Under the pieces are notes generated by a model that saw only the letters and a list, made by a program, of their open reading frames with translations, searched no databases and was not told where the DNA came from. A program made the translations under genes and the position numbers. A stretch of DNA of 64,000 nucleotides from assembly GCA_913062865.1 (NCBI GenBank), contig CAJXWO010000006.1, positions 1-64,000 on the forward strand, given 5' to 3'. The DNA is from an uncultured Paracoccaceae bacterium. GTDB taxonomy: Bacteria > Pseudomonadota > Alphaproteobacteria > Rhodobacterales > Rhodobacteraceae. Each line of letters begins with the position of its first letter. Position 1 is the first letter of the stretch. Positions 33,234 through 34,084 of the stretch are shown here, in pieces.

Positions 33234-33270
33234 GGCGTTGCTGTGCCCGGACACTGATCTTCGGACAAGA

Positions 33271-33315
33271 CAAAAAGAAACGGCGGCACCCGGGAGGAGG
33301 ATAGGTGCCGCCGTT
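33271..33315 (-). terminator. Terminator closing the CCTCCTCCC hairpin array
   Basis: On the minus strand AACGGCGGCACC (33315-33304), a 13-base loop containing CCTCCTCCC, GGTGCCGCCGTT (33290-33279), then TTTCTTTTTG. The 12-bp stem is perfect and is followed by a T-run, so the last hairpin of the array doubles as an intrinsic terminator. Confidence 0.85.
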
Positions 33316-33595
33316 CTATTTCGGACCAGCCTCCGGGAGGAGGAGTAGAGGTCTGGCCACTTCCCGGCAGACATAAGCCTGCGGTGTTGCGCTGCAACCG
33401 TGCCAGGGAGGAGGAGAGGCACGTTTGCGCGGGTTTTACGCGACGTCAGGGAGGAGGAGAGACACCGCGTAACCGGTTGGATCGAGCCGCATATAGGCGA
33501 CAGGATCCGGAATAAAAGGGGCGGCGGTACAAGGGAGGAGGAGATGCACCGCCGCCAATTTACAGAAGACCCAGGGAGGAGGAGAGGGCCGTCTG
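33279..33595 (-). ncRNA. Array of six CCUCCUCCC-loop hairpins (CcsR/cuckoo-type small RNAs)
   Basis: Downstream of the DUF1127 gene the minus strand carries CCTCCTCCC six times (plus-strand GGGAGGAGG at 33574-33582, 33533-33541, 33449-33457, 33406-33414, 33335-33343, 33292-33300). Each copy lies in the loop of an inverted repeat whose arms differ in sequence: for example GGCGGCGGT/ACCGCCGCC (33520-33528, 33548-33556), CGTGCC/GGCACG (33399-33404, 33418-33423), and the terminator stem at 33279-33315. Stems at 33326-33356, 33436-33472 and 33567-33594 contain bulges. Conserved loops with changing but complementary arms are the signature of functional RNA. In R. sphaeroides four such RNAs (CcsR1-4) are cotranscribed with a DUF1127 gene and act in oxidative-stress responses; the loop can pair with Shine-Dalgarno-like GGAGG. 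Six here is more than that set. Function in this organism is inferred. Confidence 0.85.
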
Positions 33596-33603
33596 ATCTC
33601 GGT

Positions 33604-33840
33604 TCAAGACACGGCTTCCTTAGCTGCGCGAAGCGCTACGCCGCGCAATTCGCTGCGTACGAGGCCCAGATCGGCCAGTTCGCGGTCGCTCAGGACAGCC
33701 ATTTCGTTGAATGTGGTCTTGAAGACGCGACGCTGTGCGCGATACTTCGCCAGCGCCGCCAGCGCCGCCAGGGCGGCGTTCAGGCGCTCGGTCAGGCCGG
33801 ATTTCGCGGTCGCGTTCAGAATTTCGTTTGCGTATGCCAT
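33604..33840 (-). CDS. DUF1127 small protein (CcaF1-like)
   Basis: Basic protein of 78 residues. The C-terminal half FNEMAVLSDRELADLGLVRSELRGVA is the DUF1127 (YjiS-like) motif; the N-terminus (MAYANEILNATAKSGLTERL) and an Ala-rich helix precede it. DUF1127 proteins are short Arg-rich RNA-associated proteins; the R. sphaeroides CcaF1 binds RNA and influences maturation of the cotranscribed CcsR RNAs. Here the RNA hairpin array begins within ten bases of the stop codon, on the same strand, matching that arrangement. The start at 33840 begins a family-typical N-terminus; 26 further in-frame upstream codons lie in the promoter region. Confidence 0.9.
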   Translation of the reverse strand: MAYANEILNATAKSGLTERLNAALAALAALAKYRAQRRVFKTTFNEMAVLSDRELADLGLVRSELRGVALRAAKEAVS

Positions 33841-33890: not shown

Positions 33891-33918
33891 AAGATAGGAC
33901 AATGCTGCGCCTGCACAA
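33891..33918 (-). promoter_or_regulatory. Candidate promoter of the DUF1127-RNA array operon
   Basis: On the minus strand TTGTGC (33918-33913), a 16-base spacer, TATCTT (33896-33891), about 50 bases before the DUF1127 start. A second TTGACC lies further upstream (complement near 33930). In R. sphaeroides this operon is under RpoHI/RpoHII stress sigma factors; the boxes here do not clearly discriminate between sigma classes. Confidence 0.35.
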
Positions 33919-34084
33919 TAGTTTTCGGGGTCAATGCTGCCATGCAGAAAATGCATATGCTTTGCTGACCTTAGTTTCGGCAGCGGGGACACAGACTGCC
34001 CATTTCCCGGGCACTTCCGTGATCGGGCTTGCGCCGTGGGCCGGCGACGCCACATGAAACGGCAGACATGAACGGAGGACAGGC

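Follow-up and report, generated by a model that had tools for sequence, protein, structure and literature searches.

In the window (the whole stretch of 64,000 nucleotides of DNA that was analyzed), the minus strand carries an array of three two-hairpin CcsR-like units directly behind a DUF1127 gene. By analogy with characterized homologues, we consider it very probable (ca. 0.88) that the array forms part of a stress-induced ccaF1-CcsR-type precursor, giving about three sRNAs whose anti-SD loops would block ribosome sites. Stress sRNA systems of this type are widespread in Alphaproteobacteria, and the array is an ordinary example that introduces no new type of element. The one feature that was less expected is a conserved site upstream that resembles a regulator-binding sequence.

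Structure of the hairpin array

The minus strand carries six copies of the nonamer CCTCCTCCC between positions 33292 and 33582, each of them exact (33292, 33335, 33406, 33449, 33533, and 33574), and the rest of the window holds none. Not one of 100 dinucleotide-preserving shuffles reached six matches. As the earlier note had described, every copy sits in the loop of a hairpin of its own, with 9 to 14 pairs and energies from -12.0 to -26.2 kcal/mol (motif held unpaired). The arms were said there to differ among units while remaining complementary, and this was borne out, since the assignment that joins the left and right arms of the same hairpin ranked first among the 720 possible across the six hairpins, with a summed energy of -113.5, whereas shuffled arms gave -39.7 ± 6.3. 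Stems 1, 3, 4, and 5 have mismatches, bulges, or G-U pairs. An unconstrained fold of the whole array (-151 kcal/mol; z = -12.3) recovered the same six hairpins together with linker hairpins.

Read along the minus strand, unit 1 consists of hairpin 1 (33563 to 33595) and hairpin 2 (33520 to 33556), the latter GC rich and followed by CCCCTTTTATT. A linker hairpin that lacks the motif (33480 to 33508) appears next in the minimum-energy fold, followed by unit 2, with hairpin 3 (33432 to 33474) and hairpin 4 (33390 to 33431), and by unit 3, with hairpin 5 (33323 to 33360) and hairpin 6. The limits of hairpins 1 to 5 rest on arm-pairing energies and the Rfam matches given below, and for hairpin 2 also on the sequence itself. 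Hairpin 6, delimited from the sequence, the arm-pairing energies, and the fold, forms an intrinsic terminator with its T-run (33264 to 33316); its stem includes a perfect 12-mer, AACGGCGGCACC/GGTGCCGCCGTT, followed by TTTCTTTTTG, in agreement with the terminator already proposed for this end of the array.

The DUF1127 gene (33604 to 33840, minus strand) encodes a small ccaF1-like protein of 78 amino acids. Its identification in the earlier note was confirmed by a match to PF06568 (E value of 7e-9). The stop codon lies 21 nt before the first motif, on the same strand as the array. An rlmJ-type gene is found 3' of the array, and mrp/apbC is divergent from the operon.

Assignment to the CcsR and cuckoo RNAs

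The spacing between consecutive loops alternates between short and long (41, 84, 43, 71, and 43), which indicates hairpin pairs as units rather than six equal repeats. Along the same lines, the Rfam model CcsR1 (RF02791), which describes two adjacent hairpins per unit, matched three consecutive units of the array in register: unit 1 at 33600 to 33516 (54.8 bits; E value of 5.5e-12), unit 2 at 33474 to 33389 (26.0 bits; E value of 1.7e-3), and unit 3 at 33360 to 33275 (46.0 bits; E value of 2.1e-9). Together, the alternating spacing and the in-register matches define three two-hairpin units. The Rfam model ar14 (RF02344) also matched the array at a low E value. The Rfam search that had been proposed as a check on the class thus gave a mixed outcome, with both models matching at low E values, CcsR1 three times, and all of the matches falling under gathering. 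Given that none of the three units reached the CcsR1 gathering score (65.3 bits), the array does not, strictly speaking, qualify as RF02791; this score was exceeded in just 8 of the 149 genomes of the family.

The features that characterize these RNAs are nevertheless present. As in the cuckoo class, neighboring hairpins carry CCUCCUCCC loops on variable stems, whose complementarity is kept despite the sequence variation. As in the ccaF1-CcsR operon (CIN1 locus), a co-oriented DUF1127 gene immediately precedes the array, which runs as two-hairpin units in series up to a closing intrinsic terminator (12-bp stem and T-run). The layout of both systems, which the earlier note had recognized from the letters alone, is therefore supported by the CcsR1 and ar14 matches (under gathering), the DUF1127 gene, the terminator, and a conserved upstream region. 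The assembly (86% complete, 2.8 Mb, 104 contigs) was also inspected for a second array. The sole other CTCCTCCTCCC in the genome (C34:3472) follows a terminator-like repeat and has no Rfam match to a CCUCCUCCC family, and it was taken as chance.

Distribution and size of related arrays

CcsR1-type matches were found in 121 of the 149 genomes of the family, and at least 120 loci, mostly in Rhodobacterales and Rhizobiales, emerged from a pattern scan in which named genomes were searched for three close motifs. In the pooled, de-duplicated set, the arrays listed included 116 with at least four motifs. Their median was 8 loops, 74% were larger than six, and even loop counts prevailed over odd ones (83 versus 33). 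The comparison of copy number among related genomes that had been suggested for this locus thus returned 3 to 16 loops among the arrays listed, the largest belonging to Limimaricola pyoseonensis (L103), and the six-loop size of the present array is ordinary. Loop number varies freely, usually in two-hairpin steps, which provides natural material on whether loop dose matters. In one 14-loop array (L007; G051:C4), the spacing is nearly identical in several units, which also share their bit score, and this likeness suggests recent tandem duplication. In one relative (G007:C6:21098-22610), three tandem DUF1127 genes accompany CcsR1-type matches, as if the whole operon had been multiplied.

Loss of arm complementarity in close relatives had been named beforehand as a reason to abandon the hairpin reading. 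Instead, true arms paired better than swapped arms in 153 of the 155 arrays listed, and the two exceptions were chance-like loci outside Alphaproteobacteria. A DUF1127 gene was directly upstream of 96 of the 109 listed arrays with five or more loops. Of the 45 listed arrays with three or four loops, a group that includes many rhizobial ones, 10 had such a gene adjacent.

Proposed mechanism and alternatives

In the model that we favor, a stress-responsive promoter would produce a single transcript comprising the DUF1127 gene and, in its 3' untranslated region (3' UTR), three two-hairpin sRNAs. This precursor would be cut in the linkers between units, probably by RNase E with help from the DUF1127 protein. 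Each mature sRNA would display two CCUCCUCCC loops carrying CCUCCU, the core of the 16S anti-SD sequence, and would keep mRNAs whose ribosome sites resemble GGGAGGAGG from being translated.

For transcription, stress induction, processing, and target silencing, we infer the behavior of the array from that of its homologues. In Rhodobacter sphaeroides, the RS0680a (CcsR1) RNA has two stem-loops with the loop motif (PMC3927594), and according to PMC10253847, four CcsR RNAs are cotranscribed with ccaF1 from an RpoHI/RpoHII promoter, in an operon that has an end terminator and undergoes RNase E processing. Both singlet oxygen and superoxide act as inducers of CcsR RNA (PMC3320616). The flhR mRNA is a target of CcsR1 to CcsR4, which also influence the glutathione pool (PMC8307010). 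For NfeR1, an ar14 relative, reporter assays are reported to show redundant silencing of targets by the three loops, through base pairing with the region of the translation start (PMC10746234). The blocking of ribosome sites that the earlier note had offered as a function for the loops finds support in these published studies of homologues.

The perfect full complement, GGGAGGAGG, was found before ATG at three sites in the genome, one of which, inside a glgB-like reading frame, was dismissed as a target. The remaining two lie just ahead of the start codons of a paaI thioesterase gene (C4:10840; L187) and of a gene for a sulfide:quinone-reductase-like flavoprotein, which adjoins a cytochrome c gene (C12:30112; L188). 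Both genes are candidate loop targets, as predictions only, and since just two plausible genes have the perfect site, the target set is uncertain.

The main alternative is that the loops act as a protein sponge like CsrB/RsmZ, titrating, for example, the DUF1127 protein or Hfq; titration of a regulatory protein had also been raised in the earlier note. High-copy identical loops on divergent stems would suit a protein ligand; the presence of the anti-SD core in the loop argues against it, as does the low frequency of an adjacent DUF1127 gene among the smaller arrays listed (those with three or four loops). CcaF1 does bind RNA, and its gene sits in the CcsR operon (PMC10253847). Still, the published model for ar14 is loop base pairing with the ribosome sites of targets, which the triple-loop mutant was designed to abolish, and redundancy of the loops in silencing is reported (PMC10746234). 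A sponge role has less support than ribosome-site blocking, and we regard it as improbable. It is far more doubtful that the hairpins serve mainly as stability or termination elements in the 3' UTR of the DUF1127 mRNA, with no action in trans. Their location in the 3' UTR and the terminator at the end would fit such a role; the constancy of the loop nonamer in all six hairpins while the stems drift is something that stability alone does not need, and the homologues act in trans. Finally, simple CCT repeats do recur, and one locus (L045) has motifs every 15 to 16 bases without hairpins, yet a chance or low-complexity repeat is refuted here by the shuffles, the rank of the true arm pairing, the fold z-score, and the family-wide conservation, which leave it a negligible probability. 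Blocking of ribosome sites by the loops remains the preferred reading.

A conserved operator-like site upstream of the operon

The region upstream of the DUF1127 gene was compared among the 104 DUF1127-array loci listed, some of which were represented twice (83 sequences after removal of duplicates and short sequences). The elements, which are strongly conserved, appear in the order TGCTGCATrGCAGCATTG, then ATTGTGCAnnnGCAGCA 27 to 28 bp farther on (start to start), and then CCCATNTT. In the window, the first corresponds to a site resembling a LysR-type operator, ATGCATTTTCTGCATGGCAGCATTG (33932 to 33956, minus strand), which contains TGCATGGCAGCATTG and shows one mismatch when compared to the VtlR box of Brucella, CAATGCAGCCATGCA (as quoted in PMC12595884), in reverse-complement orientation. 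The second half-site block, ATTGTGCAnnnGCAGCA (33903 to 33919, minus strand), fits T-N11-A and was present in 97 of the 104 upstream regions. It overlaps a -35-like TTGTGC, which is separated by a 16-bp spacer from a -10-like TATCTT, CCCATNTT in relatives (33891 to 33896, minus strand; from sequence and consensus), within the conserved block.

The VtlR box was found with no more than two mismatches in 75 of the 104 upstream regions, and shuffled sequences never had fewer than four. Both operator blocks occur only once in the genome, at the array promoter. Among 61 genomes of the family, the second block was present in 36, compared to one chance match for the reversed pattern. A CcsR1 match was present in all 36 block-bearing genomes, and the block was absent from all 12 genomes negative for CcsR1 (Fisher P value of 3e-6, counting genomes as independent of kinship). 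Along similar lines, a DUF1127 gene or a loop array followed 27 of the 30 second-block sites inspected. Part of the conservation of the downstream block could reflect promoter constraint, given its overlap with the -35-like region and the RpoH promoter of the R. sphaeroides operon. The position of the upstream half-site (33932 to 33956), beyond the likely core promoter, favors an operator.

The VtlR protein of Brucella is an activator of AbcR2 and of three DUF1127 genes (PMC12595884), and rhizobial LsrB, which has been called unique to Rhizobiales (NAR 2025, PMC11975290), activates NfeR1. We used as a query the Ensifer LsrB, identified by its position adjoining trxB, and 58 of 61 family genomes each yielded a single strong match, among them the genome under study (G000:C17:19311-20171; L226:1318-2229). 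In the reverse search with this homologue, LsrB ranked first (1.8e-69), followed by the next protein at 2e-44, and the putative orthology is based on these reciprocal best hits. Identity was 72% over the first 64 residues, which belong to the DNA-binding domain, and 29% elsewhere. Beside trxB in the genome under study, there was an Lrp/AsnC-type gene and no LysR gene, the homologue being located elsewhere.

These sequence comparisons suggest LsrB-type control of the array operon in Rhodobacterales, and we infer that an LsrB-like protein of this order may bind the promoter operator. The broader proposal, that across Rhodobacterales an LsrB/VtlR-type LysR regulator controls the DUF1127-CcsR operon through a two-site operator overlapping the -35 element, stands at even odds in our judgment. 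If true, a circuit leading from a LysR protein to a DUF1127 gene and anti-SD sRNAs would predate the split between Rhodobacterales and Rhizobiales, and the published view of LsrB as confined to Rhizobiales would have to be revised.

Comparison with known systems

The closest counterpart is the ccaF1-CcsR1-4 operon of Rhodobacter (Cereibacter) sphaeroides, which also has the DUF1127 gene first, two-hairpin CCUCCUCCC units in the 3' UTR, a terminator, and all of these elements co-oriented. According to published descriptions, on which this comparison is based, the four two-loop CcsR RNAs there amount to four units and eight loops, against three units and six loops here; the six loops in series, which the earlier note had seen as going beyond R. 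sphaeroides, are therefore fewer and not an extension. The DUF1127 protein is also slightly longer here (78 versus 71 amino acids), the neighbors here are rlmJ and mrp/apbC, and all three units are under the cutoff of RF02791. The cuckoo/ar14 RNAs of Rhizobiales (NfeR1, SmelA075, and SmelA099; RF02344), among which anti-SD action has been reported for NfeR1, share the multiple hairpins, the same loop nonamer, and the variable stems. In contrast, they are usually single RNAs of two to four hairpins, each under a promoter of its own, and most lack a DUF1127 gene alongside. As for the LsrB/VtlR regulon of Rhizobiales (AbcR2, NfeR1, and DUF1127 genes), the likeness lies in a promoter box that is almost the same as that of VtlR and in a reciprocal-best-hit LysR protein with a similar DNA-binding part, whereas the effector domain has diverged (29% identity). 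In this respect, the conserved operator would tie the operon of Rhodobacterales to the circuit governed by LsrB/VtlR in rhizobia and Brucella.
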